IMG/VR virus record: IMGVR_UViG_3300048583_000290 | Span: 1-53,938 of that record | Strand: one strand, 5' to 3' | From: a virus | Length of the DNA stretch: 53,938 bases | Part shown: positions 3,370-53,938 of the stretch, piece by piece | Layout: each line of letters opens with the position of its first letter | Position numbering within the stretch: position 1 is the stretch's first letter | Translations under genes and position numbers: made by a program | The notes under the pieces: generated by a model | The model's database searches: none | What the model saw: the letters and a program-made list of their open reading frames with translations, nothing else | What the model was told of the DNA's origin: nothing

Positions 3370-3454
3370 TGTATCGGACAACTTTTTTTATTATACAGCG
3401 TTTTCAGTGGGTTAGCAGACACAAATTTTTCGCTATATAAGGCCACGCGGCGAC

Positions 3455-3968: not shown

Positions 3969-4205
3969 ATGAAGCGTTTCACTGAAGATGAGCTCAAGCT
4001 CCAAGAGCAGATGGACAAAGACGTTTATGAATCGACGCGCAGCATGTTCGAGCATTTCGTGCTCCGGGTCATCCGCGAAGCAAAGCACGGCGGCGATGTC
4101 GCAAAGGACGTGGATGCCATTATCAATCTCTACAATGGCACGTCTGAATCGGCGCAGCGTTTGATGGGCAAAGTTCGCCGCCTCGACAATGAGGTGTCCA
4201 AATGA
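3969..4205 (+). CDS. Small helical protein, first gene of plus-strand cassette
   Basis: A 78-aa hydrophilic, probably all-helical protein with the start chosen at ATG 3969 behind AGAAGG. I do not recognise a family. It begins MKRFTEDELKLQ and has a charged middle (REAKHGGDVAKDVDAI). It is the first of three overlapping plus-strand genes driven by the hairpin-type promoter at 3892-3950, opposite to nearly all other phage genes; its stop overlaps the next start (ATGA). Confidence 0.7.
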   Translation: MKRFTEDELKLQEQMDKDVYESTRSMFEHFVLRVIREAKHGGDVAKDVDAIINLYNGTSESAQRLMGKVRRLDNEVSK

Positions 4206-4516
4206 CCCATATCTGCCCAATCTTCAACGAATTTGAGCGCAGCGATTTCATCGCCGTCACCGAATTTGGCGAAGTCAAAGTTGCAAGGTTTTTTGTCGCA
4301 GATTGTGAATGGGAGTTTGAGTGCCCAGTCGTCATTATCGGCCCCAATAGCCGCGCCAAGCGGTATGAAGGCGGCACAATCGAACTCATCCAGAAATTCA
4401 CCGAGCAAGGCATCGACGTGAAGCTCAACTCGCACGCAGCTGATTTTGTAAAGTATGTCCAAGATGAGCACCGCGATTATTTGGATTATCAAGCTTCAAA
4501 ATTCGATTGGAAGTAA
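4202..4516 (+). CDS. Hypothetical protein, second gene of plus-strand cassette
   Basis: A 104-aa acidic protein with no recognised family. It begins MTHICPIFNEF and contains a beta-rich middle (VARFFVADCEWEFECPVVII) with two cysteines, then a helical C-terminus. Its ATG overlaps the preceding stop and the next gene starts one base after its stop, so the three genes form one translationally coupled operon. Confidence 0.7.
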   Translation: MTHICPIFNEFERSDFIAVTEFGEVKVARFFVADCEWEFECPVVIIGPNSRAKRYEGGTIELIQKFTEQGIDVKLNSHAADFVKYVQDEHRDYLDYQASKFDWK

Positions 4517-4517
4517 A

Positions 4518-4763
4518 ATGGCCCTCGTCAAAATCAACGGTCGCCAGCATTTCATTAACTGCGACACAATCACCATCAAGCCAGTTTCTGCGGGCCGGTG
4601 GGAAGTCAAGTATGACGACCATCACACCTTCATTGTTGTTGGCGGGCGGGACTCTGGCGGCGCGTCGAATGAGTGGTTCTGCTACCACCCAACTTATTAT
4701 GGCGAGAAGTGGTTGCCTTGCGCATCCATGGTTGAGGCGGTGAAGCTCGGCGTTCAATACTGA
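4518..4763 (+). CDS. Hypothetical protein, third gene of plus-strand cassette
   Basis: An 81-aa protein starting at ATG 4518 behind GGAAG; the longer open frame upstream overlaps the preceding gene and lacks a ribosome site. It looks like a small beta-rich fold (VKINGRQHFINC, WEVKYDDHHTFIVVGG) with a tryptophan- and tyrosine-rich C-terminal half. Family unknown. It is the last gene of the cassette; repeated GGAATGAC/ACCGATTTGGTT elements follow its stop. Confidence 0.7.
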   Translation: MALVKINGRQHFINCDTITIKPVSAGRWEVKYDDHHTFIVVGGRDSGGASNEWFCYHPTYYGEKWLPCASMVEAVKLGVQY

Positions 4764-4792
4764 GTGAGCCGCGCGGAATGACCGCCAATGCC

Positions 4793-4842
4793 GGAATGAC
4801 GACCGATTTGGTTGTCATCGTCGCATAACCCCCGATTTGGTT
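4793..4842. repeat. Second composite repeat, right side of the plus-strand cassette
   Basis: GGAATGAC-GACCGATTTGGTT (4793-4813) and CCCGATTTGGTT (4831-4842) repeat, with small changes, the elements at 3772-3812. The two pairs flank the three-gene plus-strand cassette in direct orientation, and the right pair lies beside the HNH endonuclease gene. Confidence 0.7.
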
Positions 4843-4869
4843 GGCAGCGTCATCATCACCGCACTGTTG

Positions 4870-5172
4870 TCATCCAAAATCATCGACAGGCCAGCCGTCA
4901 GCACCGAGTTGTTGGCGGCCAATTGCACGTCCACCACCCTTCTCTGAATGTCTGGCATTGTCGCACGGGACGCACAGGGCGCGTAGGTTGGACTCAACAT
5001 AAGCAAGGTCTGGCCGCGACTCAACACTCTTGATGTGGTCAATTCGAGCTTTGCCCTTGCCGGTTATGCTCGCTCCGCAGTGACTACACCGATGACCTGC
5101 GAGCCGCAGCACTTTCTGGCGCAGAGGCCACCATCTTTTGTCGTTATACACTTCTTGACGTGTTTTCGGCAT
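4870..5172 (-). CDS. HNH endonuclease
   Basis: A 100-aa stand-alone HNH nuclease. A zinc-binding C-S-H-C pair, the catalytic IDHI (H of the first HNH position), SNLRAL (N) and a second CVPC pair followed by NARH are all present in the usual order. The ATG is well supported by AAGGAG. Free-standing HNH proteins in phages are either homing endonucleases or helpers of terminase cutting. Here the gene is not next to terL but lies between repeat elements, which favours a homing or selfish role. Target unknown. Confidence 0.9.
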   Translation of the reverse strand: MPKTRQEVYNDKRWWPLRQKVLRLAGHRCSHCGASITGKGKARIDHIKSVESRPDLAYVESNLRALCVPCDNARHSEKGGGRAIGRQQLGADGWPVDDFG

Positions 5173-5196
5173 TAAATTACTCCTTTTTGGCGGTTC

Positions 5197-5520
5197 CGGC
5201 CCAGCTCTAGCCCAGCAGCGGCCCAGCTAAAGCCCAGCACGAAAATACGACGTAAGCCCCTGAAAAATAAGGATAAAAAGCTGATTTTTTCCCAGGAACC
5301 CAGCTGGGCCGCAGGTTCCCTTTTAGCGAGCCTCGCGGGCGCGCGCCTATGCCCGCCTATGCGTATATGCGCGAGCCGCGCCAATCTCAGACAGAATTGC
5401 CTTTCTAATTTTCTCTATCCTTTTTACCTTTCTAGCTGGGCTGCTGGGACTAAAAGAGAATAAAAGATAAGAAAAACAAGGGGTTAGCAAGTTTTTTTGT
5501 GCTGGGCTAGAGCTGGGCCG
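5197..5520. repeat. Gene-free region bounded by a perfect 21-bp inverted repeat, GCTGGGC-rich
   Basis: The left arm 5197-5217 is the exact reverse complement of 5500-5520 (core GCCCAGCTCTAGCCCAGC). Inside and around the arms, GCCCAGC or GCTGGGC occurs about ten times, clustered at both ends, and the middle is A/T-rich. No plausible gene is present from 5173 to 5563; the open frames there are repeat-driven and lack coding character. The position beside the D5-like helicase and RepB-like primase makes an origin of replication a reasonable guess. Confidence 0.75.
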
Positions 5521-5563
5521 CGACCCAGGTGCAGCTGGGCTGCGGCTCGCATCACGCCCTTCA

Positions 5564-7051
5564 TCAGAATGGCTCGTCATTCTCAGTTTTGGTATTGGCG
5601 GTCAGCACTGGCGCGGCTCGCTTCTTCCATTTCGACAAATCCGCAGGCACGGTCATATTTCCGCAACGATTGCGCGACAGCCAGCTTTTGGCAAAATCAG
5701 CTTGGTTTTTGATAATCACCTTATCCGTAACATAGACGCCATTGAACCGCTCATTGTCAACTCGAACACGACCGATGCCATAGTAACCATGCTCGCGCAT
5801 CTTGTGCGGAAAACTTTTGCCGAACACCAACTTGTCAATCATCTTTGAGTCATCATTTATCGACGCTGAATCCTCGATATATGCCCGAAATTCATTTGTG
5901 ATGAACACATCCGGGTTGCCTTGAGCTTCAAAGTAATTCTCCAAATAGTCATCCAAAGGCGTTCGCCGGACATTGCTCACCAACTCGCGCAGAGCCTCTT
6001 TTGATTCAGTCGTCGGTGCTTTGGCGCTCGGATTGAACGCGTGCAAATCCCGGCGGCTCAGCCAATGGATGGCATGCTTCCAGCCGCCGCCATTCATCCA
6101 CGCATAAAAGCGTTCAAAATACCCGTCTGGCCATTCCTCAGCCTTGCGCGCGGCATGAAGCAACGTCAATCTCCGGTCATCGTCCTCAATATGAAGCGAG
6201 AATGGATGATTGGTCGTTGTGAACAACGCAACTCGATTGGCGACCTCATACTCATCTATGCCCTTCCGTTCAACCGGAATGAACAGCGGCGGCGCGACCG
6301 TGACATCTTTGAGCGCCTCATATAGCTCGACACTACTCTGCTCGCGGCTGCTCGTTTCGTTAATGACGACCAGCAATGACCGAACCCAAGCATTGAACCT
6401 GCCGCCCGCTTTGCTTCCTTTCACCGTTTTCATTAAGCTGTTGCCGAGCCAATGCTGGAAGGGCACAAACAGAGTATCTTTGCCGCTGCCCTGCGGCCCG
6501 TGAATGACGCACAAGCCGTTCAACTTCCGGTCAGGGAATTGAACTTTGAACGCAAGCCGGTCAAGCAGCATCTGACGTTCAACCTCATTTGGGAAAAGTT
6601 GTTCGATATGATTGATATACGGCCCTGCGTCACCTTCCCAATCCGCATCAACTGCAATGGGCGGCAGGTATTCATTGAAGACCTTCATATTGGGGGCCTC
6701 GCGCAACTCCCCATCGCTGCACATATACCGCGCAATAATCTGCGGCATGCCAGGCCACCATGTTCGGCCATACACCAATCGCCCAAATTCCGGGTTCATG
6801 ATGTCAATCGTCGGCTTGACGAAAACAATTTCGCCTTCATCGTCCTCGAATGAGCGCCAAAACTCTCGTGGAATGACGCCATTTACAGTCGCGGCTGCCA
6901 CCATCGCGCCGCTCTTTACATCGATGAACTTCTCACTTGGAAGGTCAAAGACAAAATCTTCTGGGCGCGGCGTCCTGTCAATATAGTCATCGATGTGCGC
7001 TTCAGCTTTGGCCGCAAGCTCGTCATCATACGGGTCATTGTCGTCGCTCAT
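5564..7051 (-). CDS. D5-like / DUF5906 superfamily 3-type helicase
   Basis: A 495-aa replicative helicase candidate. It has a Walker A GPQGSGKDT around residues 165-175, a Walker B-like LLVVINETSS some 45 residues later and a sensor TTNHPF, as in the helicase part of phage D5/NrS-1-like primase-helicases. A winged-helix-like C-terminus follows (VFITNEFRAYIED). The start at ATG 7051 overlaps the primase stop (ATGA) behind GAGAAG, so primase and helicase are a coupled split pair rather than the usual single polypeptide. It should act at the replication fork on dsDNA. Confidence 0.85.
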   Translation of the reverse strand: MSDDNDPYDDELAAKAEAHIDDYIDRTPRPEDFVFDLPSEKFIDVKSGAMVAAATVNGVIPREFWRSFEDDEGEIVFVKPTIDIMNPEFGRLVYGRTWWPGMPQIIARYMCSDGELREAPNMKVFNEYLPPIAVDADWEGDAGPYINHIEQLFPNEVERQMLLDRLAFKVQFPDRKLNGLCVIHGPQGSGKDTLFVPFQHWLGNSLMKTVKGSKAGGRFNAWVRSLLVVINETSSREQSSVELYEALKDVTVAPPLFIPVERKGIDEYEVANRVALFTTTNHPFSLHIEDDDRRLTLLHAARKAEEWPDGYFERFYAWMNGGGWKHAIHWLSRRDLHAFNPSAKAPTTESKEALRELVSNVRRTPLDDYLENYFEAQGNPDVFITNEFRAYIEDSASINDDSKMIDKLVFGKSFPHKMREHGYYGIGRVRVDNERFNGVYVTDKVIIKNQADFAKSWLSRNRCGNMTVPADLSKWKKRAAPVLTANTKTENDEPF

Positions 7052-10382: not shown

Positions 10383-10639
10383 TTCACCTTCGGCTTGATA
10401 GCAAAAACATTGTCGCCGACCACTTCATACCGGCTCTTCAAAGTCGGCTGCGGCTCGTCAACGTCATCGTCGCATTCAATCTGCGCTCGCTGTTCAGCGT
10501 CTGCGATAAGCCACGCCGCGTCCTTGGCGACAGCCGCGCTGGCCTCCACCGCTTTGCCGGCGCTCATCAATGCTCGACCAATAATCTGCGCGACGGCGAC
10601 AGCCGCGACGGCCCCAATCAGCGTTTCAACGATACTCAT
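10379..10639 (-). CDS. Small single-helix membrane protein
   Basis: An 86-aa protein with GAGGGGA before its ATG. Residues about 3-28 are a long Ala/Val/Ile-rich hydrophobic helix (VETLIGAVAAVAVAQIIG), followed by an alanine-rich helix and an acidic, basic-ended tail. It is probably inner-membrane anchored with the tail in the cytoplasm. Function unknown; lysis timing, exclusion or membrane recruitment are all possible. Confidence 0.65.
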   Translation of the reverse strand: MSIVETLIGAVAAVAVAQIIGRALMSAGKAVEASAAVAKDAAWLIADAEQRAQIECDDDVDEPQPTLKSRYEVVGDNVFAIKPKVK

Positions 10640-10649
10640 TGCAATCCCC

Positions 10650-10937
10650 TCAATCTGCGGTGCGCGCTGTCACATAGAATTTCTCGGATGATGGCTCGCG
10701 CCAGTTGGCTTCGAGTTCACCGGGGCGAAGCGTCTGGCGCATCATCTTGTCGCAGACGTGCTGGCAGTAATCGCGGTCAAGATACTCCCAGCAGAAGTGC
10801 ACCAGGCCAAATGGATGCGTCCACTGGATGCGCCAAAGCTGGTCGCCGACCTTGGTTTTCGGGGTGCCACGCTTCGCACGCGTGTCGCGGGTCTGCGTCC
10901 AGGGGATGACGGCAAAGGTGTTTGGTTGCTGTGTCAT
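10650..10937 (-). CDS. Hypothetical protein
   Basis: A 95-aa protein with ATG at 10937 overlapping the upstream stop (TAATG). It is rich in tryptophan and has a paired-cysteine region (HFCWEYLDRDYCQHVCDKM) that could bind a metal. No family recognised. Confidence 0.65.
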   Translation of the reverse strand: MTQQPNTFAVIPWTQTRDTRAKRGTPKTKVGDQLWRIQWTHPFGLVHFCWEYLDRDYCQHVCDKMMRQTLRPGELEANWREPSSEKFYVTARTAD

Positions 10938-11257
10938 TATCGTTGCCACTCCGCTGCGGCCACAAGCAGGCCAGCTTTGAATTGTTCCGCTGCGCGCTTT
11001 TCGGCCTCTGCGGCCAGCGCCAAGTCGAGGTGTTGGTGGACATACGCCTTCAGTGCCTCTTCATCGCCAACCTTGAGAGCCGCGATGCAGTCGGTCACGC
11101 ATTCGGGGATTTGCCATCCGCCGCTCATCCGCTGCGTGCGCTTCGGCAGTGCTTTCCATGCTTGGTAAGCTGCCGCGCAGAGCTTGATGTTGATGGCGTA
11201 GCACCGGCTGTAAACAGTCGATGCGCCGGGCCACGTTGGGAGATTATCGTTTGCCAT
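10937..11257 (-). CDS. Hypothetical protein
   Basis: A 106-aa protein starting MANDNLPTWPG at 11257; the longer open frame to 11395 overlaps a better upstream gene and is rejected. It is largely helical with a long Ala/Glu-rich C-terminal helix (LALAAEAEKRAAEQFKAGL). No family recognised. It lies immediately downstream of the 58-aa gene. Confidence 0.65.
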   Translation of the reverse strand: MANDNLPTWPGASTVYSRCYAINIKLCAAAYQAWKALPKRTQRMSGGWQIPECVTDCIAALKVGDEEALKAYVHQHLDLALAAEAEKRAAEQFKAGLLVAAAEWQR

Positions 11258-14555: not shown

Positions 14556-14620
14556 GGCAACACCGCGCCGCCTTGACAACCCCTTTTAGGCGCTCCGCTT
14601 TGAGCGGCAAAGCGTTTTTA
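14556..14620 (-). promoter_or_regulatory. Hairpin-type promoter module for the 14534-11503 operon
   Basis: A-tract (14615-14619), TTGCCG (14605-14610), 16-base spacer, TAAAAG (14583-14588) and hairpin GGCGGC-GCGGT-GTTGCC (14556-14572; six pairs, two of them G-U) on the minus strand. Upstream, TCAAAAATAGTTTG on the plus strand is shared with the region near 31030. Confidence 0.8.
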
Positions 14621-14793
14621 GTGAATAACTCAAAAATAGTTTGGTCAAACGTCCGCCTTCGCTATCGGTCGGGCCTAGCCGCGCCCCTTGATATATCGAG
14701 CGGGAACAAGCCCCTAGCGCCTCGCGCGCCTTCCGGCCCCTAACCCCTAGCCTATCGGTCGCGGCGCTCTAGCCCGCCTTCTAGGCCGCTTTA
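14621..14793. other. Spacer with CTAG-rich, TG/CA-poor island
   Basis: About 170 bases without a gene. Five CTAG sites occur between 14677 and 14784, while TG and CA dinucleotides are almost absent. It may hold the terminator of the upstream operon, but no clean stem with a T-run was found. Confidence 0.4.
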
Positions 14794-16737: not shown

Positions 16738-16803
16738 GACGGCACCGCGCCGCCCGAACACCTTTCTTCTAGGCGATAGGAAATGCTAAGCAAACAGTTT
16801 TTA
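16738..16803 (-). promoter_or_regulatory. Hairpin-type promoter module for the 16718-16153 operon
   Basis: A-tract (16798-16802), TTGCTT (16788-16793), 16-base spacer, TAGAAG (16766-16771) and hairpin GGCGGC-GCGGT-GCCGTC (16738-16754; six pairs with one G-U) on the minus strand. Confidence 0.85.
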
Positions 16804-16812
16804 TTGATGCGT

Positions 16813-18207: not shown

Positions 18208-18269
18208 CAGCACCGCGCTGTTCGATAGCCTCTTATCCGCTATTTTTAATGATAGGCAAAGCGTTTTTA
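18208..18269 (-). promoter_or_regulatory. Hairpin-type promoter module for the 18187-16813 operon
   Basis: A-tract (18264-18268), TTGCCT (18254-18259), 16-base spacer, GATAAG (18232-18237) and hairpin CAGC-GCGGT-GCTG (18208-18220) on the minus strand. The stem is only 4 bp, but its sequence differs from the other copies while pairing is kept. Confidence 0.8.
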
Positions 18270-18341
18270 TTGCCCCGTCTCGCCCCTTCGCTATCCCTCG
18301 CGCCTAGCGTAACCCTCTGATTTCCCTCGTTTAGACAAGCC

Positions 18342-20672: not shown

Positions 20673-20744
20673 CTGGAAACGACACCGCGTCGCCTCCAGT
20701 CCCTCGCTTATCGGCCCTTTTTCTTGCGAAGCAAACAGGTTTTA
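20673..20744 (-). promoter_or_regulatory. Hairpin-type promoter module for the 20654-18342 operon
   Basis: A-tract (20739-20743), TTGCTT (20729-20734), 16-base spacer, GATAAG (20707-20712) and hairpin CGAC-GCGGT-GTCG (20680-20692) with an outer CTGGA/TCCAG stem (20673-20699) on the minus strand. Confidence 0.85.
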
Positions 20745-20853
20745 TTGATAGACTCAAAAATTTCTTTGATAGGCGGTCGTTTTTCTTGTCTAAACGCTTG
20801 CTCTGCGTCGTGGCCGCCGCCCCGCCCTATAGAGACGGCCACGCGCCGAACAA

Positions 20854-30260: not shown

Positions 30261-30324
30261 GGGCGAAGCGCCGCGCTCCGCCCTCTATACCTGCCCGATT
30301 TAATCTGCGCTGGGAAGGGTTTTT
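30261..30324 (-). promoter_or_regulatory. Variant hairpin-type promoter module for the 30239-20854 operon
   Basis: The minus strand shows A5 (30319-30323), a poor -35 (AGCGCA, 30306-30311), TATAGA (30284-30289) and hairpin GGGCGGAGC-GCGGC-GCTTCGCCC (30261-30283; nine pairs, one G-U). The loop is GCGGC rather than GCGGU. The poor -35 suggests that an activator or a different start may be used. Confidence 0.6.
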
Positions 30325-30354
30325 ATTGACTGCGCAAAGAAAATCCTTCCCAGC
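30309..30354 (-). other. 10-bp inverted repeat enclosing the A-tract
   Basis: GCTGGGAAGG (30309-30318) and CCTTCCCAGC (30345-30354) are perfect reverse complements with a 26-base gap that contains the A/T tract of the promoter. It lies just after the stop of the gene at 30361. It could be an operator dyad around the promoter or a weak terminator of the upstream gene. Confidence 0.55.
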
Positions 30355-30360
30355 AACAAA

Positions 30361-30933
30361 TTAGGCTTCGACCAAATCGGTCTGGTCGGCGCCAGCGTCA
30401 TCGCCGGTGCCGGTTTCATCGCCGGTGCCGGTGTCATCGGCGGGCGCGGCCGGTTCTGCCGGGGTTGCCGGCACGCCGAGCTTCGGTGCGGTCACGATGG
30501 CATCGCCGGGCAAAATCTTCCAGACATAGCCCCATTCTTCATCGGTGCCATTGGCCTTCAGTTCCTGGCGGAACTTGATGTGGTGCTTCATGTCGATGCC
30601 GAGGTGACGGAAGGCATCGGCGACCGACTTGTAAACAACGCCATTGACTTCAACGCGGCTGCGTTCCTTGCGCTTGGCGGCCACTTCCGGGTTCTTCCAG
30701 CTTTCGCTGACGCCAGCCGAACGCGGATTGGTGATGCCGGCCTCGATGCGCGCGGCGACAGCAACGGCTTCGGCAGCGAGCGTTTCGAGCAGTGTGGTGA
30801 CCTTGGCGACAGCAGTCGGCAGGTCGGCAAACTTCTTGAGCTTGCGCTTGGAATTGACGTTGTAGAACGCGAGCAGTTCCTCGATGGACTTTTCGCCGAT
30901 GTTCTCGGCAGTGACTGTGGCAACTTCCGACAT
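30361..30933 (-). CDS. NUMOD1-like protein with acidic tail, paralogue of the 2836-3252 product
   Basis: A 190-aa protein with ATG 30933 behind GGAG. The N-terminal 80 residues are helical (IEELLAFYNVNSKRKLKKF). Then comes the segment shared with the 138-aa protein (GVSESWKNPE, VEVNGVVYKSVADAF, HIKFRQELKANG), resembling a NUMOD1-type helix-turn-helix. The C-terminal 40 residues are Asp/Gly/Thr/Ala low complexity. GC-ending codons suggest abundant product. DNA binding is inferred. Confidence 0.7.
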   Translation of the reverse strand: MSEVATVTAENIGEKSIEELLAFYNVNSKRKLKKFADLPTAVAKVTTLLETLAAEAVAVAARIEAGITNPRSAGVSESWKNPEVAAKRKERSRVEVNGVVYKSVADAFRHLGIDMKHHIKFRQELKANGTDEEWGYVWKILPGDAIVTAPKLGVPATPAEPAAPADDTGTGDETGTGDDAGADQTDLVEA

Positions 30934-30979
30934 TTTGTTCTCCGTGCTTGGGCCGCCCATCGGCCTCTTCAGCCCGGTT

Positions 30980-31019
30980 ACTATCGCCTGTTTCGCTGCA
31001 GAAGAAAAGCCCTTTTTTT
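30980..31019 (-). promoter_or_regulatory. Promoter of the A-tract/16-bp-spacer family for the NUMOD1-like gene
   Basis: A7 tract (31013-31019), TTTCTT (31002-31007), 16-base spacer, GATAGT (30980-30985) on the minus strand. The leader contains a GGCC-loop-GGCC fold (about 30951-30965) rather than a clear GCGGU hairpin, so it is a divergent member. Confidence 0.65.
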
Positions 31020-31313
31020 GGGGTAATCAAAAATAGTTTGTTCTGCCATGAGCCGCACCCTTATATAATGGTCAGCCTCGCGCGCCCGCGATAGCCTAGA
31101 GCGACGGCCCTAGCGCATATCAAGCGTTTAGACAAGCGATACCCGGCGGCATGTAATAAACGGCTTATCGGATGAAATCGGGCGGCTTATCATTCGTTTT
31201 TAATGGTCTAAGCACTAAAACCGCTTCCCGTCGCATTCCTTTTCGGCTAGAGAGGGAAGGCGCTAGGGGAGCATGCAAATCCTTTACCGCGTTCACATGT
31301 GAAAGGAAACACA
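31020..31313. promoter_or_regulatory. Divergent control region with palindrome before the PEP-CTERM gene
   Basis: About 290 bases without a gene between two divergent transcription units. The perfect 12-bp palindrome TTCACATGTGAA (31292-31303) sits directly before the AAGGA ribosome site of the plus-strand gene and is operator-like. CAAGCGTTTAGACAAG (31121-31136) recurs inverted at 20785-20800. No convincing plus-strand -35/-10 pair was found. Confidence 0.5.
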
Positions 31314-31940
31314 ATGATTCGTTCTCTGTTCAGTATCGGTGCGCTCGTCGCACTGGCGATGGCCGCGCCCGCGTCCGCCGGTGTCTTCACCGTCACCGCC
31401 GGCACCATTGCCCCCATCGCCGGTTCCGGCAATGACTTCACCAGCGACCTGGCCGGTCTGGGCCTCGGTGTGAAGGAACTCCAGAACTCGACCGTCAGCT
31501 ACACCGGCGGTGCCTACAAGGTCGAACTGCTCGGCTATGAAAACGGCTTCACCGACAGCTTCTCGGTCGATGGCGGCGTGACGCAGCTCGGCACTTCTTG
31601 GTCGGGCTTTGCCAATCTGTTCGCATCGCCGCTGCTGCTCGGTGTGTCGAACGCATCGCCGTCGAAGTGGCTGTTCAAGTCGGCACAGGCTGGTCTCGGT
31701 GTCGTCGGCACCAATGCCTTCTCGCTGTTCGGCCCTGCCGGCACGATGACCGGCGATGTCTTCCAGTCGCGCACGCTGTATGTCGGCTTCAATGACGGCG
31801 GCGGCGATGGCGACCACGACGATGGCATCCTGCGCATTTCGGCGGTGCCGGAACCGGCATCGTGGATGACGATGATTGCGGGCTTCGGTCTGGTCGGCTT
31901 CGGGATGCGCCGTCGCACCGCCAAGACCGTCGCAGCCTAA
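31314..31940 (+). CDS. Secreted PEP-CTERM protein (phage moron)
   Basis: A 208-aa exported protein. Residues 1-22 are a signal peptide (MIRSLFSIGALVALAMAAPASA). The mature part is beta-rich and Gly/Ser-rich and has FNDGGGDGDHDDG before the tail, like the calcium-loop segment of many PEP-CTERM proteins. The tail has VPEPASW, a hydrophobic stretch with GFGLVGFG, then MRRR: a complete PEP-CTERM sorting signal of sphingomonad type, recognised and cleaved by host exosortase. The start is ATG 31314 behind AAGGA. It is the only gene here on the plus strand, with its own terminator and strongly optimised codons. Likely a surface or matrix protein altering the infected cell. Confidence 0.88.
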   Translation: MIRSLFSIGALVALAMAAPASAGVFTVTAGTIAPIAGSGNDFTSDLAGLGLGVKELQNSTVSYTGGAYKVELLGYENGFTDSFSVDGGVTQLGTSWSGFANLFASPLLLGVSNASPSKWLFKSAQAGLGVVGTNAFSLFGPAGTMTGDVFQSRTLYVGFNDGGGDGDHDDGILRISAVPEPASWMTMIAGFGLVGFGMRRRTAKTVAA

Positions 31941-31960
31941 CCTACAACGTCGCCGGAATT

Positions 31961-31990
31961 GGGCCGCCAGAGCAATCTGGCGGCCCTTTT
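31961..31990 (+). terminator. Rho-independent terminator of the PEP-CTERM gene
   Basis: GGGCCGCCAGA (31961-31971) and TCTGGCGGCCC (31976-31986) form a perfect 11-bp stem with a GCAA loop, followed by TTTT. It lies 20 bases after the stop and also separates the gene from the convergent lysis genes. Confidence 0.92.
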
Positions 31991-31996
31991 CTTTGC

Positions 31997-32206
31997 CTAT
32001 TCTGCATCGTCCCGCTTCAGGCCGCGCGTAAGCAGAGCAAACACAGTCCCAAGCCCTTCCCGCAACCACATACCGATGACGAGGCCCAGAGCTTCGCCGT
32101 CAATCTGCTTGTAGAAAACGAGCCATGATGTTAGCACAAAAGCCATCACCAGCACCGTGTAGGTGAGAATTGTGTTTGACCAGAAACGGTGCTTGGGCGT
32201 GCTCAT
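31997..32206 (-). CDS. Holin candidate with two membrane helices
   Basis: A 69-aa protein with two hydrophobic segments (about residues 13-31, TYTVLVMAFVLTSWLVF, and 38-58, LGLVIGMWLREGLGTVFAL) and a basic/acidic tail RGLKRDDAE. Its size, topology and place directly after the M15 endolysin gene (ATGA overlap) fit a class II holin. It is the last gene of the late operon. No sequence signature proves it. Confidence 0.65.
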   Translation of the reverse strand: MSTPKHRFWSNTILTYTVLVMAFVLTSWLVFYKQIDGEALGLVIGMWLREGLGTVFALLTRGLKRDDAE

Positions 32207-32871
32207 AGCTGCAAAATGCCTCGCCTGTATCCGCTCACGCCGCTCTGGTGAGTCAGCAAGTCCCTGCGGAGCCTGTTGGTTCGATATGACACGTGAACAA
32301 ATCCCGCATTTCTGTTGCCGGGGACTTGGCCAGTCAGAATAAGCTGGTCAAACGGCAAGTGTAGCCGAATCAATTCAGCGACCGCGAACGGCGTCATCCC
32401 TGGAACTTGAATATCTGCCGCTTCGCCAATTCGATGCTGGCTGGACGCGGCGCCACCAACGGCCCGATTGACAGCATCGGAGCGATACCCAGAAGTGACG
32501 CGGACAGCAGAGCCGATACGATTGCGCAGCGGCTGGAGCACTTTGTCAACGAGCACCTGCAGATTTGCGATTGAAGTTGCCGAGGGTTTGTTTGGGATGC
32601 CGCGCGAAACAGCAGTGTTGCTATGCGTCATTTCCGCGAGAGTGAAATTGGCAGACATCTGCCCCGGTGAGCCTTGCGGCGGCAACGGAAATGAATCTGG
32701 CGGACTGCCAGGTTCTTCACCGCACTCTGTCGCGGCGGCAAGCTCGCAAAGAGCTGCATCGACGGCTTCCAGAGTAATGGGGCCAAAAACGCCTGTGGCA
32801 TTGGTTCCGAGCCGCATCTGCAAATCGCGCATTTGCTGGGCGGTCACTCCGATAATGGTTGCCTGGCTCAT
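32203..32871 (-). CDS. M15-family peptidase endolysin
   Basis: A 222-aa protein with an N-terminal peptidoglycan-binding-like repeat (TAQQMRDLQMRLG ... GPITLEAVDAAL), a Pro/Ser linker and a C-terminal peptidase M15 domain: FTLAEMTHS, VTSGYRSDAVN, SSQHRIGEAADI (zinc His/Asp) and FVHVSY (zinc His). It cleaves peptide cross-links of peptidoglycan to release phage. The start is ATG 32871, 2 bases after the upstream stop; the longer frame has no support. Confidence 0.88.
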   Translation of the reverse strand: MSQATIIGVTAQQMRDLQMRLGTNATGVFGPITLEAVDAALCELAAATECGEEPGSPPDSFPLPPQGSPGQMSANFTLAEMTHSNTAVSRGIPNKPSATSIANLQVLVDKVLQPLRNRIGSAVRVTSGYRSDAVNRAVGGAASSQHRIGEAADIQVPGMTPFAVAELIRLHLPFDQLILTGQVPGNRNAGFVHVSYRTNRLRRDLLTHQSGVSGYRRGILQL

Positions 32872-32872
32872 A

Positions 32873-33187
32873 TTAATTGCTTTCTTCTGGAGTTGGAGTC
32901 GGCGTCGGGAAAGGGAATGGAAATTCAGGCATCGGCTGCGGGTCGGGGTTTTCGACAACGACTGCTCCAAGCCACGCTTTCTTGGTGTGCGGCATCGTTT
33001 CAAAAAGCTCATCAACGCTGGCGGTGACGGAAGCCTGGTCGGAAATGTTGAAATTCCACGACCCAAAAGTGCCATTTGTGAACAGCACGGCACCGAACAC
33101 ATAGTCGGGCCGGTTCACTTCCGGCGTTTCAGGGAACAAATCTCCTTTGGTAGGGTATGGCTTGGCCACGCTTGCTTCATCGTCCAT
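32873..33187 (-). CDS. Hypothetical protein with proline-rich tail
   Basis: A 104-aa protein between the fibre and endolysin genes, ATG 33187 over the fibre stop (TGATG). An N-terminal beta-type part (DYVFGAVLFTNGTFGSWNF) precedes a Pro/Thr repeat tail (FPFPFPTPTPTPEESN). Possibly a small virion or fibre-assembly protein. Family unknown. Confidence 0.65.
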   Translation of the reverse strand: MDDEASVAKPYPTKGDLFPETPEVNRPDYVFGAVLFTNGTFGSWNFNISDQASVTASVDELFETMPHTKKAWLGAVVVENPDPQPMPEFPFPFPTPTPTPEESN

Positions 33188-36100
33188 CAGAAGTCCTCCA
33201 GTAGTGGCGCAACAAAAGGCGCGGTTTGTGAATTTTTGGTGAGCGTCGCAAGGATGTTTACCGTCCTCACGATGGACTCTTCATTCGAGTTCATCTGGAA
33301 ATAATAAGAGTGCTGCGCCCCCGCAGAAACCCCGATGTCAAAGAAAACCATCGACTTGACACCGTATGCGTTGTTCGGGGTGTCGTCAATATAGACGCCG
33401 GTGTATTGAGTCGTTAGGATGAAACCGTCGCTCCGATAGATGCGGAAGCTGGCAAGGTCGCTGTTTGAGCCGAAGTTGCGGATGAGCACGCTCACGTCAA
33501 ATCGAATGAGAGCCGCGCCAGTCGGGTCATTTACAATGGTGACGCCCGCTTGCGCGCCGTTGAGGACAATTGTGCTCCAGACATTGCGAGTGAACTGCGT
33601 TCCAGCCGTCGTTTGGCTGTATGAGTAAATCGTCTGAATTGCATTTTGAGCGATGAGAGGCGTTGTGATGCCGTTGCGGCGAATTGTTAGTGCGCCGGTC
33701 GCATCGCTGTCAAGAACATTTCCGTCAATCCTCAGTTGGTCAACGGTCAAATCATCGATGACGGCTTGGCGAATCAAAACACGCCCGCCGCGAACTTCAA
33801 ACACAGGTTCGTCGATGCCAGTCGCGGCATTGAACACCCGAAAAACGTCAATCAAGAATGACAGCAGCGACGGCCCGGTGGTGCCGTTGATGAGGTCGAT
33901 GCCAGCGATGCGGCCATTGGCGTCGGCGCGCACAGACCATTTCAGCCCCTGCGCGGACGTTGCCTGTTCGGTCACGGTCAGGCGGTTGGTGTTGCTTTGG
34001 GATGTGGTTTCTGTGACCGTGACGCGCTGCGCCAGAGCATTGTCAGCGTTGACGCGGGCTGTTGTTTCGTCGGTGACGCGGGCATTGGTCGCCGTGATGG
34101 CAGCTCCCTGCGAGACGACAGTTGATTCGGTGATGGCGATGCGCTGCGACAGGGCATTGTCGCCGTTTACGCGTGCAGTGCTCTCTGTGATGATTTTGGC
34201 TTCAAGCGCCGCGAGGTCAGCGGAGTCAGCGGTGTTAATCTGGTCCCAAGCGATGCCACTCCACCTGAAGATATTGTCTGGCATACCGGGGCCAGTATCT
34301 TGGAACCATACCCATCCCGGCTCCGGGTTTGGCGGGGCAGCAGCTTGGAAGAATGTTTTAGTGCCCTGCGCGCCTTCGGCAATGATGGTTTGGATTTGCT
34401 GCGCCAAGGCTTCATCAGCGCTGGCGCGTGTGGTGCTCTCGGTCTTTATGAGTGCGCGCGTGTCTGCGGTTCGTGAAACAGCACCGTAGCGCCCATTCAA
34501 GACGGCGATGAGTGTGTTAGCCGGGACGCCGATAAGTTGAAGTGTCGGTCGCAGCGACGTGGTGCCGTTGGCGAAGGGTGCGGCGTCGAGAATGTCAGGT
34601 GACGGACGCCCGACATTGTTTCCAGCGCCAGCCGCCGCGCGACCGCTGCCGTATCCTTGAACGACAACACCTCCCGGCAGAAGAGGCGCAGCCGCTGCTA
34701 CTTGGTTGTGGAATGAGCCAAAGTCTGAAGGAATCAAAGCGACGTTGGCAGCGTCATAAGGCAGCCAGCCGGCATACACTTGAATTGCGGCGGCAGGGTC
34801 TGCGCCGCCTGCATTACGGAAAAGCTGCCAGCGCCCGCCATAGGTTTCTGAAAGTGTAGGGTTGAAGCTGGTGCGTGGCCCATACAAAATCATGTTTGTG
34901 AAGTCAGTTGAGTAATAGCCCAGCCCTCGCCCGCCTTCGGCATTGCCATCAACCGTCAGGAACCACGCACCACTATCGAGTGCCGGGCTGGCTTCAAAAC
35001 CCGCAGCAATCAGAGCAGCAATGCTTTCATAGGCCCCGAAGTCAAATGCAGCCTCTGCTGTGCTGGAAGCGCGAGCGCGCGCTTCAAGTGCAGTTGAGCG
35101 GCTCGCCAATGCTGTATCGCCAGCAACGCGGGCTTGGCTTTCATCCGTGATTGCCGCGTTGCTGGCGGCGGCGCGCGTCACGATGCCGTATCTGCCGCCC
35201 GTAATAGTAATTGGAAGTCCTACAGGGGTTCCGATAATTTGAATGGCTGGCATCAGCCGTGAAGTTCCATTAGGGAAGGGGCGCGGCGCAGATAAGTTGG
35301 GTGCGGCTAACCCGACGCCATTCCCCGCGCCGACGGCAGCTCTGCCTCTACCATATCCCTGAAGTGTTGGTGCAGAAAGCGGCTGGAGCGGGAACGCCAA
35401 TGCAACTTGGCTTGCTTGCGATGACCCGTCGCTAACAAGAAAAGTCCCATCGGCGTCAAAGCAGGCCCAGCCCGCAAACACGCTTATTGCAGCAGCATTG
35501 TTTGTTGCCCCACCATCCGGGCGAAACAGCCGCCACATGCCAGAATAAGTTTCATCAAAGGGGTTGAGCCCAAAAGCCGGGGCGCGCAGCAAAATCTGGT
35601 CTGCGGCACTTAGCGTGCAGGTCAAACTCCGCCCGCCAATCCCGGAGCCGTTCGGCTCCATCTTCCAAGCCCCTGTCGACACCGGAGGATTAAAAAACCA
35701 GCCTGCACGCTCCATCATTTCAGGACTACCGAAAGCAGCAAAGTCAAAAGTTGTCTCGGCAGTCTCGGTTGACAAACTGCGGGCCTCAAGCGTCGATGCG
35801 CGTGTCGCCAGCGCGGTGTCGCCAGCAACGCGGGCTTGGCTCTCGTCAGCAACGCTGGCGCGCAGGTCAACTGTGGTGCGCGACAACCCAACGACCGTCG
35901 AAGTGACCGGGCCGTATGTCCACTCATAGATGTCGAGAATATGCCCCGGCTGCGTTCCGCGAAAAGTAACCATCGGCAAAAGGCTGCGCGTTCCGGTGGG
36001 GAACGGCGTTGGTTCGGAAATATCAGGTGCGGCAAAACCGACTCTGTTTCCCTCTCCTACATTTGCCGTTCCGCGAGCATACCCTGCTGCGCTCCAAGAC

Positions 36101-38403
36101 CCATCCTGACGGAAGGCGGGTAAGCCGCCGTGAAGCTGGTCAAAGCCTGCATCACTTGGAGTTATAGTTGCATTAGCAGCATCACGAGCGCGCCAACCGA
36201 CCGTAACCCAAGGCTCCGGCGCAATACTGTCAATTCGCTGGCCGCGCGCTGTAGTTGCGAAAGTTGGCGAATCATCCAAGTTTGTAGCTGGATAGCTCAC
36301 GCTCGGCGCAAATAAAATCCCGTCAACTTGCGAGTTCTGCGGAGTCGGCCCTGTAAAGCGTAATGCTCGTCCGCCTTGCGCTTCTTCAGCAGCAACAATC
36401 TCCCAGCGACCGGATGAAATCACAGGCCAGAAATTAAAACCAGCCTCGACCATCGCCTGCAAGGTCGGATAGGCCCCGATGATGATGCTGGTCAGTGCCT
36501 GCCGGTCTTGGAACTGGTGCGACTCCAAGCGGCTGGAGCGAGTTGCTAAAGCTGTGTCACCAGCAATGCGGGCTTGGCTCTCGTCGGTGATGCGCGCCGA
36601 CAGTTCGGATAAGTCAGTCGAAAAATCAGAGCCGCGGAAGCCTAGGAATGGTGCGCCAATTTCGATGCTGCCTGCCGTCACAGCCGATGCGAGTGCGAGC
36701 CGCCAAGTGCCAGCTTCGTCAGGCAGTTCAAAAGTATTCAAAAAGCGCGTCGGGGTATTCACGGTTGATGCTGGCAGCGGAACGCGAAGGGACGGCAAAA
36801 GAGCGCCAGTTACGGTGCGAAGGTCGAGCACGACATCAACGTTACCTGCTGTGTTGGCTGCGCGAGCAAATACAAGCTCTGCATCAAGAGTGCGCGACGG
36901 AACAGGCCGAAATGCAGCGTCATTAGCGGTAAGCGTTCCAGACCTGCGAGCAACAAAAACGTTGCGTGCTGGACCTGCGCTGCGTTGCTCGACGTTCCAC
37001 GCCAAGTCGCTAAACGACCAATCTGCACCACCACCCGTAAATTGGGGGTTCATCAATAAGTTGCCGCCTGCCTCTTGAATCTCGCGCGATGTTGCTTCTA
37101 TAACATCACTACGTTGAGCTAAAGCTGCATCAGCAGCAGCACGCACCTGGCTCTCGCTGGTGATTCGAGCATTAACTTGAGTGAGGTCAGTCCCGAAATT
37201 AGCTTCCAGACTATCGATGCGTGTTGCAAGAGCGGTGTCGCCGGCAACGCGAGCTTGGCTCTCACTGCTGACGCGGGCGCTCAAGTCTTGGGTAGTGCCC
37301 GCCAAGCCGACCAAAGTTGACGTAAGAGGGCCATACCCCCACTCGGAAAGGAATAGCTGGTGACCTGCTGCCGTTCCATCGAATGTAACGACTGGGCGGA
37401 CAGTGCGTGCGTCGGTCGGGAATGGGGTTGGGGCATTTACATCAGGTGCAGCAAAACCAACGCGGTTGCCCGCTCCAACGGGAGAGCGACCGCGCGCATA
37501 CCCTGATGTGCGAACGCCGCGCGACGGGAGCGATTCAATTGCGCCGCCGTGTTGAGAGTCATCGCCACTGTCATTCGGTATAGCAAACCCAGCCGAGTTA
37601 AAAGTTCGCCACCCGACCACAATTGTCGGGTTTGAAGCAACTGAATCAGACCTGTGAACTCGCACGGTGACCACAAAAGTAGGGTCGTCCACCGGGGCAA
37701 GCTGTGGGTAAGTCATGGGAAGCCCAAGCACCGTGCCTTGCGTCTGCGAGTTTTGGGCTGTCGGGCCTGCGAAATGCAGACCAATTCCACCGACAGCCCC
37801 AGAAGCATTCCGAAGGCTCCAGCGCCCTGAATCTATGGCGGGAAAGAATTGAAACCCATCATCGACCATCGCTTGCAGGCTGGCGTAGGCACCGAAAACC
37901 ACGCTGGTAAGCGACTGCAGGTTCTGAAACTTGTGCGCCTCAAGTGAAGTCGAGCGCACTGCAAGAGCAGTGTCTCCGGCAATGCGCGCTTGGCTTTCTT
38001 GCGTAACGCTGGCCGTCAGCCGCAAATCTGCTGAATCCAAATCAGCTTGGATGGTATCAATTCGCTGGCCGATGATAATGTCTGCGCCTGCGAGCACTTC
38101 AACTTCAGTCGTGATGCGCGCATTGAGTGTTGTGTAGCCTTGCTGCAGCTGGCCTTCCAAATCGGTGCGGAGCAATTCATCTGCAGCCGCAAACTCGCCA
38201 CGCAGCGTGAACATAATCGGAGTGGGGTCTGGCCAGAACTCCAAATCGCTGTAACGTTGGAAGCCGTTGCCGACTTTCGCCAAAATTCCAGTCACGCCGC
38301 TTTCAAAAACAAGCTCGCCGTGACCAATGACAAGGTCGTTGTTGAGCCATTCAGAAGCCGTCCCAATGAGAAGGCGGGTTCTTGCGGGAAGGGTGTCTGA
38401 CAT
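33187..38403 (-). CDS. Modular tail fibre protein
   Basis: A 1738-aa receptor-binding fibre. The N-terminal part has the fibre-type motif VIGHGELVFES. Then come four homologous modules of about 215 residues starting near residues 156, 631, 884 and 1114, each ending in a GR-x-VG-x-GN-x-VG-x(3)-P segment and a final beta strand. One unrelated jelly-roll-like module lies near 448-610. They are joined by coiled-coil linkers of the ESQARVAGDTALATR type. A DUF1983-like region lies near 1486-1600 and a C-terminal knob ends LLEDF. ATG 38403 follows the upstream stop by one base. Confidence 0.85.
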   Translation of the reverse strand: MSDTLPARTRLLIGTASEWLNNDLVIGHGELVFESGVTGILAKVGNGFQRYSDLEFWPDPTPIMFTLRGEFAAADELLRTDLEGQLQQGYTTLNARITTEVEVLAGADIIIGQRIDTIQADLDSADLRLTASVTQESQARIAGDTALAVRSTSLEAHKFQNLQSLTSVVFGAYASLQAMVDDGFQFFPAIDSGRWSLRNASGAVGGIGLHFAGPTAQNSQTQGTVLGLPMTYPQLAPVDDPTFVVTVRVHRSDSVASNPTIVVGWRTFNSAGFAIPNDSGDDSQHGGAIESLPSRGVRTSGYARGRSPVGAGNRVGFAAPDVNAPTPFPTDARTVRPVVTFDGTAAGHQLFLSEWGYGPLTSTLVGLAGTTQDLSARVSSESQARVAGDTALATRIDSLEANFGTDLTQVNARITSESQVRAAADAALAQRSDVIEATSREIQEAGGNLLMNPQFTGGGADWSFSDLAWNVEQRSAGPARNVFVARRSGTLTANDAAFRPVPSRTLDAELVFARAANTAGNVDVVLDLRTVTGALLPSLRVPLPASTVNTPTRFLNTFELPDEAGTWRLALASAVTAGSIEIGAPFLGFRGSDFSTDLSELSARITDESQARIAGDTALATRSSRLESHQFQDRQALTSIIIGAYPTLQAMVEAGFNFWPVISSGRWEIVAAEEAQGGRALRFTGPTPQNSQVDGILFAPSVSYPATNLDDSPTFATTARGQRIDSIAPEPWVTVGWRARDAANATITPSDAGFDQLHGGLPAFRQDGSWSAAGYARGTANVGEGNRVGFAAPDISEPTPFPTGTRSLLPMVTFRGTQPGHILDIYEWTYGPVTSTVVGLSRTTVDLRASVADESQARVAGDTALATRASTLEARSLSTETAETTFDFAAFGSPEMMERAGWFFNPPVSTGAWKMEPNGSGIGGRSLTCTLSAADQILLRAPAFGLNPFDETYSGMWRLFRPDGGATNNAAAISVFAGWACFDADGTFLVSDGSSQASQVALAFPLQPLSAPTLQGYGRGRAAVGAGNGVGLAAPNLSAPRPFPNGTSRLMPAIQIIGTPVGLPITITGGRYGIVTRAAASNAAITDESQARVAGDTALASRSTALEARARASSTAEAAFDFGAYESIAALIAAGFEASPALDSGAWFLTVDGNAEGGRGLGYYSTDFTNMILYGPRTSFNPTLSETYGGRWQLFRNAGGADPAAAIQVYAGWLPYDAANVALIPSDFGSFHNQVAAAAPLLPGGVVVQGYGSGRAAAGAGNNVGRPSPDILDAAPFANGTTSLRPTLQLIGVPANTLIAVLNGRYGAVSRTADTRALIKTESTTRASADEALAQQIQTIIAEGAQGTKTFFQAAAPPNPEPGWVWFQDTGPGMPDNIFRWSGIAWDQINTADSADLAALEAKIITESTARVNGDNALSQRIAITESTVVSQGAAITATNARVTDETTARVNADNALAQRVTVTETTSQSNTNRLTVTEQATSAQGLKWSVRADANGRIAGIDLINGTTGPSLLSFLIDVFRVFNAATGIDEPVFEVRGGRVLIRQAVIDDLTVDQLRIDGNVLDSDATGALTIRRNGITTPLIAQNAIQTIYSYSQTTAGTQFTRNVWSTIVLNGAQAGVTIVNDPTGAALIRFDVSVLIRNFGSNSDLASFRIYRSDGFILTTQYTGVYIDDTPNNAYGVKSMVFFDIGVSAGAQHSYYFQMNSNEESIVRTVNILATLTKNSQTAPFVAPLLEDF

Positions 38404-38404
38404 G

Positions 38405-38905
38405 TTAGACCTCAACCGATGGGTTTGAAACTGTGCCTGGGTCGGTAACTGTTACTGCCGGATTGCTCGGCGTTCCGGCAACTATCCAATACGGCCCAGA
38501 TGAAGGCGGCGTTGGCGGGTCTGCTGGAATGAATGCGTTGGCAAGCATAGCTGGACTCATTTCGGCGCCAACAGTAACGGTGACTAAATTCCATCCAGCA
38601 GAGCTTATGTCAAGCGACGTAATGAAGCGAACTTCATGCGGGGAGAGAATTTCACCTTTGCTGAGGGCACTTTGCAAATCAATCTGGAACCAAGTCCACG
38701 CATTGTCGTTACACCACGATTGCCACTCTGTCAATTCTTCAGCGCGCAAGGTGAACTGGAGAGCCATAATTGTTGGCAGTCGAGTATATTGCCTGCGTTG
38801 ACGCGAATTGCCGGTCGAGAACTGCGAGCGAAGCAAACCTGCGTCAACCGCCAGGCTGTATGGCTGGCGGTCTGGAAGGGGGAATTTGGCAGGATAGACA
38901 GTCAT
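38405..38905 (-). CDS. Minor tail protein
   Basis: A 166-aa protein between the J-like hub and fibre genes, with the start over the hub stop (TGATG). FTLRAEELTEWQSWCNDN and WTWFQIDLQS resemble a small tail-tip family. The C-terminus is Pro/Thr/Val-rich. Structural role inferred mainly from position. Confidence 0.65.
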   Translation of the reverse strand: MTVYPAKFPLPDRQPYSLAVDAGLLRSQFSTGNSRQRRQYTRLPTIMALQFTLRAEELTEWQSWCNDNAWTWFQIDLQSALSKGEILSPHEVRFITSLDISSAGWNLVTVTVGAEMSPAMLANAFIPADPPTPPSSGPYWIVAGTPSNPAVTVTDPGTVSNPSVEV

Positions 38906-51763: not shown

Positions 51764-51855
51764 CAAATCCGCTCCTTGTAAATCCAGAGGCGGGAAGGGG
51801 AGCAGCTTTGCGCCACTGCCCTTCCCGCCTGAGGCCCAAAACAGGCCTGGGTGTG
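51764..51855. other. Short spacer after the capsid gene
   Basis: On the minus strand AGGCCTGT-x(4)-GGCCTCAGGCGGGAAGGG follows the capsid stop, without a clean T-run. Possibly a weak attenuator lowering expression beyond the capsid gene. Confidence 0.25.
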
Positions 51856-53274
51856 TTAGCCCCAGTTGATGCCCGTCATGAACTGCGCCGCGTTCGGGTT
51901 GGTCTTGCCCCAGCTGAGGTGCGCGACCATCCGAATGCCGAGGCTGTAGGTCTGCCACAGCGACCGCGACTGAACGCCGGCAGCGCCGACCGCCAGACCA
52001 CCATTGGGGCCGACACGACCGGCTTCACCGGGCAGTGCCTGAGACGGCGGCGTGCCATCGGCGTTGGCTTCGGTGATGGTTGCGACATCGCTGACATCGA
52101 ATTCAATGCCGCCGAGCGCCATTGCGATGAAGGCGCCATCCAGGGCTGCGAGCATGTCGAGCGGGACATGGCCGGAGCTCACCTTCGGCAGACCGAGCAG
52201 GCGATTGGCGTTGAGTTCGGTCTTGTAGAGGAAGTCGCCCATCACGTTGACCATCATGCCTGCGGACAGGACATTGAGGTTGTTGGCGATGAGCACCGGG
52301 CGCTGGCCGAGCTTGTTGACGGTCATCGCCTTCAGCAGCGTCAGGATGTCGGCGCGGACATTTTCTTCCGGCAGACCGGCCGCAGGAACCAACGGCGTGA
52401 CGCCATAGAACGGCGATGCGGGCCGCACACCGGCGACAGCGTTGATGGTCGGCGTCAGGATTGCATGGTCAACGACCTTGGCATAGGCGTTGCGCATCAG
52501 CTCGCGCACGATGCCTTCGATTGCCGGCGTGGAGCGCGTGGTGATTTCCTTGCTCATCGTCGTGATGGCGGCGAGCTTGTAGGGGTTCAGCGTCATGCTG
52601 CCAAAGCCGAAGCTGGTGACCGGGATGACGCCGCCTTCACCGACCCATGCCGGCTCGGTCAGTTCATTGCCAATCGGGTCGGCATTGGGAATCTTGATGG
52701 AGCCATAGCCGCCGAAGTCGAAGTTCTGGACGAACGTGATGAGCTGCGCCGCAACGCTGACATCGGTGAGCTGGCCCATGAAGCCACGGACATCTTCCTG
52801 CACCAGTTCACCGGCCCAGGAAGGCACGCTGGTGACGGCAATCTGTTCCGCCGACTTGGAAATGAAATCGAGGGTTGCCTTGACGCGGTTGTCGTCGGGG
52901 TAGCGTTCCTCGATGACCTGGTCCACCGACTTCTTCTCAACATGCGCGAGCAGCTTGGCGGTTGCGTGCTTCCACATCAGCTCGCCGCCACCCTTGGGCG
53001 TGCGCAGGTGGTTCATGTTCGGGATGATGGCGGGCGCACCGGGGCCACCCTCGGTGCCGGCAGGGGCTGCGCGCGAAGCCAAAGCCTTTTCGGCCTTGCG
53101 CAGCGCGCCGATGGTGGTCGTCTGCTTTTCGACGCTGCCGGTCAATTCCTCGACCTGCATCAAAAGGCTTTCTTCATTCGGCGCTGCTTCGAGCGCCTTG
53201 ACAGCAGCGTTGAGGCTGTCCTTGCTGGTGACCAGTGCGGTTTCGGCCGCAACGATGCGTTCTGCGAGATTCAT
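51856..53274 (-). CDS. Major capsid protein, HK97 fold
   Basis: A 472-aa capsid precursor. The first ~100 residues are a charged coiled coil (LAERIVAAETALVTSKDSL) acting as scaffold delta domain, removed by the protease. The HK97 core follows with FISKSAEQIAVTSVPSWAG, FGFGSMTLNPYKLAAITTMSKE and MNAYAK-like helices to the end MTGINWG. ATG 53274 overlaps the protease stop (ATGA) behind GAGG. Codons are highly optimised. Confidence 0.93.
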   Translation of the reverse strand: MNLAERIVAAETALVTSKDSLNAAVKALEAAPNEESLLMQVEELTGSVEKQTTTIGALRKAEKALASRAAPAGTEGGPGAPAIIPNMNHLRTPKGGGELMWKHATAKLLAHVEKKSVDQVIEERYPDDNRVKATLDFISKSAEQIAVTSVPSWAGELVQEDVRGFMGQLTDVSVAAQLITFVQNFDFGGYGSIKIPNADPIGNELTEPAWVGEGGVIPVTSFGFGSMTLNPYKLAAITTMSKEITTRSTPAIEGIVRELMRNAYAKVVDHAILTPTINAVAGVRPASPFYGVTPLVPAAGLPEENVRADILTLLKAMTVNKLGQRPVLIANNLNVLSAGMMVNVMGDFLYKTELNANRLLGLPKVSSGHVPLDMLAALDGAFIAMALGGIEFDVSDVATITEANADGTPPSQALPGEAGRVGPNGGLAVGAAGVQSRSLWQTYSLGIRMVAHLSWGKTNPNAAQFMTGINWG

Positions 53275-53840
53275 GTCCGTGTCCTCAGAAAAAGGTTTGT
53301 GCGAGCGACAGCCCGCTTTGCAGCGTGGATTGCCTCTTGCGAGGCGGCTGGGCACGACACGGCCCCATTCGGCATTGCCATTGACGACAGGTCAAGGCCG
53401 AAATTCTTTGCGATGCGGACTGCCTGCGGGTTGGCAGGGACGCTAACGACAGAGCATTCAAGAAGCTCGATGGCGTTATATGTGATGCCGCCGAAATCAT
53501 TTGGGCGACCGGAACCCATGAACCCGATGGACGACGCCAACGGAACATCGTCTGTCAGAAGCGATGTGACCATCTGGCCGAGATTGGTTGACGCAAGCCG
53601 CAAATCGCCGAGCAGTTTTGTGCCCTCGACACGCAGCTTTTCCCAATAGCCGATTGGTTGGTGGCGGTCGTGCTGCCAGAGGCAAAGCAAATTGCCAGCT
53701 TTAGCTGCTGCGCTCCGCAGCGCGTCGATGGTGATGGTGTCTTGGTCACGGTCAAGCGCGGTGCTGCTCAGCACAAAAGTCCCGGCTGAACCCGGAGCCT
53801 TTGTTATCAGTGCTGTCGCAGTTTTGAGGCCGTTGGCCAT
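53271..53840 (-). CDS. Prohead protease, HK97 (S78) family
   Basis: A 189-aa serine protease that matures the capsid. LCLWQHDRHQPIGYW carries the catalytic His, SSIGFMG the Ser, and ELLECSVVSVPANP the third conserved region. The start is ATG 53840, 10 bases after GGGGA; GTG 53858 is less likely. The gene spans the artificial contig ends: its first bases are repeated at 1-29. Confidence 0.92.
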   Translation of the reverse strand: MANGLKTATALITKAPGSAGTFVLSSTALDRDQDTITIDALRSAAAKAGNLLCLWQHDRHQPIGYWEKLRVEGTKLLGDLRLASTNLGQMVTSLLTDDVPLASSIGFMGSGRPNDFGGITYNAIELLECSVVSVPANPQAVRIAKNFGLDLSSMAMPNGAVSCPAASQEAIHAAKRAVARTNLFLRTRT

Positions 53841-53938
53841 CGCTTGAATCGTCCCCACGCTCGTTATCCGGTTGAGTATCTTGATTCGGAAAGCAGAGTC
53901 AAGCGGAAAACACGACTTTGCCCAAATTATTTCGGGCA
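53812..53938. repeat. Right copy of the 127-bp terminal direct repeat
   Basis: Identical to 1-127. When the circle is closed, terL (279-1928) lies directly upstream of the protease and capsid genes in the direction of transcription, giving a normal packaging-head order. Confidence 0.95.

Follow-up and report, generated by a model that had tools for sequence, protein, structure and literature searches.

We analysed the whole of the IMG/VR virus record IMGVR_UViG_3300048583_000290 (53,938 nucleotides, hereafter the window) and find that it carries, in a gap between blocks of phage genes, a plus-strand gene for a 208-residue protein with a PEPxxWA-CTERM sorting tail. Through exosortase systems, PEP-CTERM proteins reach the cell surface and become linked to exopolysaccharide (EPS; PMC1569441, PMC12188702). 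In our judgement it is an evenly poised proposition that the phage, a closed and probably virulent one of sphingomonads, carries the gene as host-derived cargo (a moron) and that the product is a lectin-like protein displayed on the cell surface by exosortase.

Sorting tail, host family and fold of the protein

The assignment of the tail is carried by two curated models. The protein scores 43.8 bits against NF035944 PEPxxWA-CTERM of NCBIfam (cut-off 35, E of 1.7e-11, residues 178-201) and 29.7 bits against PF07589 PEP-CTERM of Pfam (cut-off 20.7), and the tail comprises VPEPASW, a hydrophobic helix and MRRR. At the N terminus, MIRSLFSIGALVALAMAAPASA followed by G is signal-peptide-like by eye, with typical sequence and hydrophobicity. 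The coding part runs from the ATG at 31314 to 31937, with the stop codon at 31938-31940; a ribosome site (AAGGAA) lies 5 nt before the ATG, and the downstream terminator (31961-31986), with an 11-bp stem, reaches -30 kcal/mol for the folded region, at a z of -6.2 equalled by none of 200 shuffles. A first-pass annotation of the DNA had named the complete tail, the ribosome site and the terminator, and all three are borne out. It had also called the 12-bp palindrome TTCACATGTGAA operator-like: the palindrome is real and unique in the window, but perfect 12-bp palindromes are, if anything, rarer there than expected (8 against 13), and we therefore dropped it as evidence of an operator. The self-contained phage moron that was proposed thus stands as a phage-borne gene of a host-type family with its own ribosome site and terminator, but without the palindrome.

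The same annotation had suggested a search of host genomes, and this placed the protein in a chromosomal family. Full-length homologues occur in about ten of 398 Sphingomonadales genomes, at identities of up to 42%, and a family-level search extended this set further, whereas a class-wide sample of 385 genomes held no homologue at E<=1e-10. Where the neighbourhoods of homologues could be read in short loci, the genes look like ordinary host genes. Of 11 genomes with a homologue, 10 encode an exosortase, and in two cases the genes for exosortase and homologue are about 5 kb apart; no exosortase was found in the closed phage genome, which leaves the phage dependent on that of its host. In the tree, the phage protein is nested among host homologues on a long branch (1.39 changes per column), and all residues invariant among the homologues are kept in the phage copy, including the acidic motif and the PEP, W, G and R residues. 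No viral homologue of the protein body was found by single-protein scan, family scan or domain-only profile. The host group of the phage is probably sphingomonad-type bacteria.

The body was modelled in two AlphaFold (AF2) runs based on 11 and 18 sequences, with mean predicted local distance difference test (pLDDT) values of 76.9 and 80.5, and both models show an all-beta domain flanked by N-terminal and C-terminal helices. Foldseek searches of the PDB rank Ca2+-dependent PA-IIL/LecB/BclA lectins first for both, with E of 0.022-0.15 (none below 0.001), probability up to 0.95 and a query TM-score of 0.30. Family profiles hit DUF4114 in three of 11 members and PA-IIL in one, with no lectin-type match above its cut-off, and a PDB sequence search with the family profile gave nothing useful. 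Just before the PEP motif, D161, D165, D169 and D170 are invariant in 18 sequences; judged by sequence, this conserved motif would be the kind of acidic loop that PA-IIL-type lectins use for Ca2+. In Myxococcus PilY1.1, the function of DUF4114 is linked to Ca2+ and depends on EPS, which the domain is proposed to bind (PMC9109919); in an Acanthamoeba protein, it is the domain reported to bind mannose (PMC11934332). These pieces are individually weak but agree, and we lean slightly towards calling the protein lectin-like; the body would probably be a divergent domain of DUF4114/PA-IIL-like type that binds sugar in a Ca2+-dependent manner.

Setting of the gene in a closed phage genome

Because its first 127 bases are identical to its last 127, the contig closes on itself. 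The phage encodes a terminase, a portal, a major head protein, a tail-tip protein and an M15 endolysin, together with replication-type genes (PolIII-type DNA polymerase, primase, ligase and ThyX). The tyrosine integrase family PF00589 has no match in the closed genome (serine integrases and plasmid-like lysogeny were not searched for), and this search thus lends no support to a lysogenic conversion gene, which would call for a temperate phage with an integrase. As no tyrosine integrase was found and the phage has its own replication genes, its gene content suggests that it is probably virulent.

Nearly all phage genes lie on the minus strand, and the PEP-CTERM gene stands alone on the plus strand within a 1036-bp gap (30961-31996) that separates the replication block from the lysis and structural block. 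The gene, of a host family and with its own terminator, sits between phage genes (Table 1). Copies of the repeat elements to its left recur elsewhere in the window, which marks the left flank as phage DNA; on the right, a phage gene ends 56 bp past the stop codon, and beyond it lie the M15 endolysin, tail, portal and capsid genes. The description of the gene as the only one on the plus strand holds for the right-hand region but not for the phage as a whole, since small plausible plus-strand genes occur at 3969-4205 and 4455-4763. The major head protein gene is faced on its antisense strand by a 613-residue open frame (51808-53649, +), probably a shadow frame.

Table 1. Features of the PEP-CTERM gene, its flanks and the contig ends (window coordinates)
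Feature	Position	Strand	Basis
Terminal direct repeat, identical copy at 53812-53938	1-127		sequence comparison
Left neighbour, phrog_4730 protein with sub-threshold I-TevI DNA-binding domain match	30361-30960	-	profiles
Phage repeat elements upstream of left neighbour, further copies in window	31006-31136	-	repeat search
12-bp palindrome, unique in window, not above chance	31292-31303		
Shine-Dalgarno-like AAGGAA	31303-31308	+	sequence
Coding sequence with stop, PEPxxWA-CTERM protein of chromosomal Sphingomonadales family	31314-31940	+	profiles, homologues
Predicted Sec signal peptide, residues 1-22, ending APASA before G	31314-31379	+	sequence; N-terminal helix 3-15 in AF2 models
All-beta domain, residues 24-177, weakly PA-IIL/BclA-lectin- and DUF4114-like	31383-31844	+	AF2 models, Foldseek, profiles
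Acidic Ca-site-like motif, residues 161-170	31794-31823	+	alignment of 18 sequences
Sorting tail of PEPxxWA-CTERM type (residues 178-201), made up of PEP motif, membrane helix and RRR	31845-31916	+	NCBIfam, Pfam
Intrinsic terminator, 11-bp stem and U-rich tail	31961-31994	+	folding
Right neighbour, hydrophobic protein of 69 residues without a family match, holin-like from its position alone	31997-32206	-	profile scan
Endolysin, Peptidase_M15_3	32203-32877	-	profiles

Other repeats were seen in the window. Related intergenic elements of CAAACTATTTTTGA-like and TTGTCTAAACGCTTG-like sequence, resembling phage regulatory sites, occur at 31006-31136, 20733-20820, 14601-14646, 3878-3916, 16769-16807, 18250-18272 and 30306-30328, and a 10-bp tandem repeat of CTAGGCGGCC runs through intergenic positions 3443-3577. 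Within the gene at 33187-38415 (-), a probable modular tail fibre of 1742 residues, a 69-nt repeat has five copies about 700 bases apart (35077-38001).

PEPxxWA-CTERM genes in other viruses

The window gene is not the singleton that it first seemed. Scanning IMG/VR with a DNA pattern for PEPxxWxxM.xGFG yielded 91 stretches in 90 records, all of which pass NF035944. Some of these records will be host DNA at prophage edges. Eight further records were taken whole, and four of them (G062, G071, G011 and G040) close on themselves, each with a PEP-CTERM gene; G062 and G071 are of the L014 type described below. Several families recur in viruses, labelled here L014 (five records), L025 (four) and L007/L008 (seven). 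The ratio of non-synonymous to synonymous change (dN/dS) in the recurrent families is mostly 0.05-0.35, and several are under purifying selection.

L014 and L025 proteins are of a short type, about 140 residues long, in which the first hydrophobic segment is followed by a basic stretch. Across the 398 Sphingomonadales chromosomes, the L014-type body finds partial and mostly C-terminal matches only, and for this reason it may be confined to phages. In L014, as in the record L064, the PEP-CTERM gene shares 4 nt with the gene upstream of it, a gene order that suggests expression of the L014-type gene with the upstream block and not with lysis genes.

Three further loci were noted. A jumbo-size viral contig (L187, 416,714 bases) has a PEPxxWA-CTERM gene with a short basic body at 10503-11168 and an M15-like motif about 5 kb away. 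On a chromosome (L188), a Gly-rich PEP-CTERM gene lies by an L,D-transpeptidase-like gene and is similar in build to the L014 type. In L085, the gene for a phage DNA methylase that weakly matches intein and LAGLIDADG (4115-6052) lies upstream of a PEP-CTERM gene.

It is a tentative but plausible generalization that genes for exosortase substrates recur in phages whose hosts bear exosortase, in host-derived as well as phage-only families, and that these phages use host sorting as surface display during infection, the window gene being a lectin-like version.

Proposed role, alternatives and known systems

Sorting by exosortase, binding of sugar and exclusion of other phages are what we infer for the window protein. 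After phage entry, the gene would be read from its own putative promoter; the product would leave through Sec and stay anchored in the inner membrane through its C-terminal helix. The PEP motif would then be recognised by the exosortase of the host as the site of cleavage, after which the enzyme would hand the protein on to the cell surface or the exopolysaccharide. There the body, most likely a Ca2+-dependent DUF4114/PA-IIL-like lectin, would bind a host surface glycan; with this receptor masked or crowded, adsorption of rival or sibling phages to the infected cell or its matrix would be prevented. Since lysogenic conversion would bring a virulent phage little benefit, a use within a single infection is likeliest, and superinfection exclusion is the likeliest such use. 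An antisense position relative to lytic genes is typical of accessory loci (PMC7067206).

Several results weigh against a host-derived, displayed lectin. No promoter of the gene's own was found nearby on the plus strand by a consensus scan, which is weak for this bacterial group. The G+C content at third codon positions (GC3) of the gene, 79% against a phage-gene mean of 62.5 (standard deviation 7.3), does not clearly mark a foreign origin. The best lectin fold match (E of 0.022) is not significant alone, and the window protein itself has no DUF4114 match. Furthermore, IMG/VR searches with the portal, terminase and tail-tip proteins returned no relative of the phage, and hence no empty-site relative, so that insertion of the gene is read from its family and position.

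The main alternative to exclusion is a matrix change that aids progeny, in which the displayed lectin would cross-link or loosen exopolysaccharide and thereby retain progeny near aggregated hosts or free them. PEP-CTERM proteins are linked to EPS retention, flocs and biofilm (PMC1569441, PMC9850573, PMC12188702), and the EPS binding proposed for DUF4114 (PMC9109919) would fit; a lytic cycle, however, leaves little time for such a change, and we consider it unlikely. A little less likely again is that the gene is neutral or recently acquired from a host, without function for the phage and heading for loss. It is the sole viral copy of its body known, with host-like GC3, but its open frame, family-invariant residues, Shine-Dalgarno site and terminator are all intact, drift without selection would hardly have preserved the invariants along so long a branch, and purifying selection acts on other PEP-CTERM families of phages.

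A role in lysis, spanin-like or through weakening of the envelope, is suggested by the 263-bp gap between gene and endolysin and by the several other viral PEP-CTERM genes found near endolysins. We consider it improbable, as the gene lies on the opposite strand in its own unit, and the L014-family gene overlaps by 4 nt the upstream gene of an opposite, non-lysis block. An association with lysis genes was not supported across 14 lineages either: an endolysin lies within 1300 bp in six, against 3.8 expected (P of 0.14, not significant). An assembly chimera, joining a host PEP-CTERM gene into a phage contig, would account for a body without viral homologues but is very improbable, given a closed contig with phage repeats directly to the left and a phage gene close to the right, and PEP-CTERM genes in other closed phage genomes.

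If display through exosortase is borne out, this enzyme joins the conflict between phages and hosts in sphingomonads and other EPS-forming bacteria. PEP-CTERM biology, in which few substrates have known roles, may in turn gain a group of proteins that selection maintains in viruses.

Among known systems, the window gene is closest to the chromosomal Sphingomonadales PEP-CTERM family (L096-L106, L211-L218), sharing its architecture, its invariant residues, its organization as a gene unit of its own and the terminator often found there; it differs in being carried by a phage, between replication and lysis/structural blocks, at no more than 42% identity. With the PEP-CTERM/exosortase (EpsH) system (PMC1569441) it shares a tail that passes curated models and an exosortase in homologue-bearing genomes, whereas here the substrate is encoded by a virus and its sorting is predicted from sequence. 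PA-IIL/LecB/BclA lectins and DUF4114 resemble it as the best fold match in two models and in the acidic Ca-site-like motif, although the match is not significant alone and the window protein is predicted to be secreted and sorting-tagged. The other viral PEPxxWA-CTERM genes, several of them in closed phage genomes, share the sorting tail but have unrelated bodies. INPHARED holds no phage with the window protein, an L014-type protein or the consensus tail, the last two queries being short or low-complexity, and a literature search for PEP-CTERM or exosortase in phages found no relevant paper, although it covered few subscription papers and so is not proof.

The products of the lambda genes bor and lom are located in the membrane. 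As morons, these genes resemble the window gene in encoding cell-surface proteins from units of their own, apart from the late transcript, and they show that accessory genes which alter the cell surface and stand as separate units are already known in phages (PMC7067206). Lambda, however, is temperate and its proteins make no use of exosortase, whereas the window phage has no detectable tyrosine integrase and its protein would be delivered by host exosortase, a route that is undescribed as far as the literature searched and INPHARED show.
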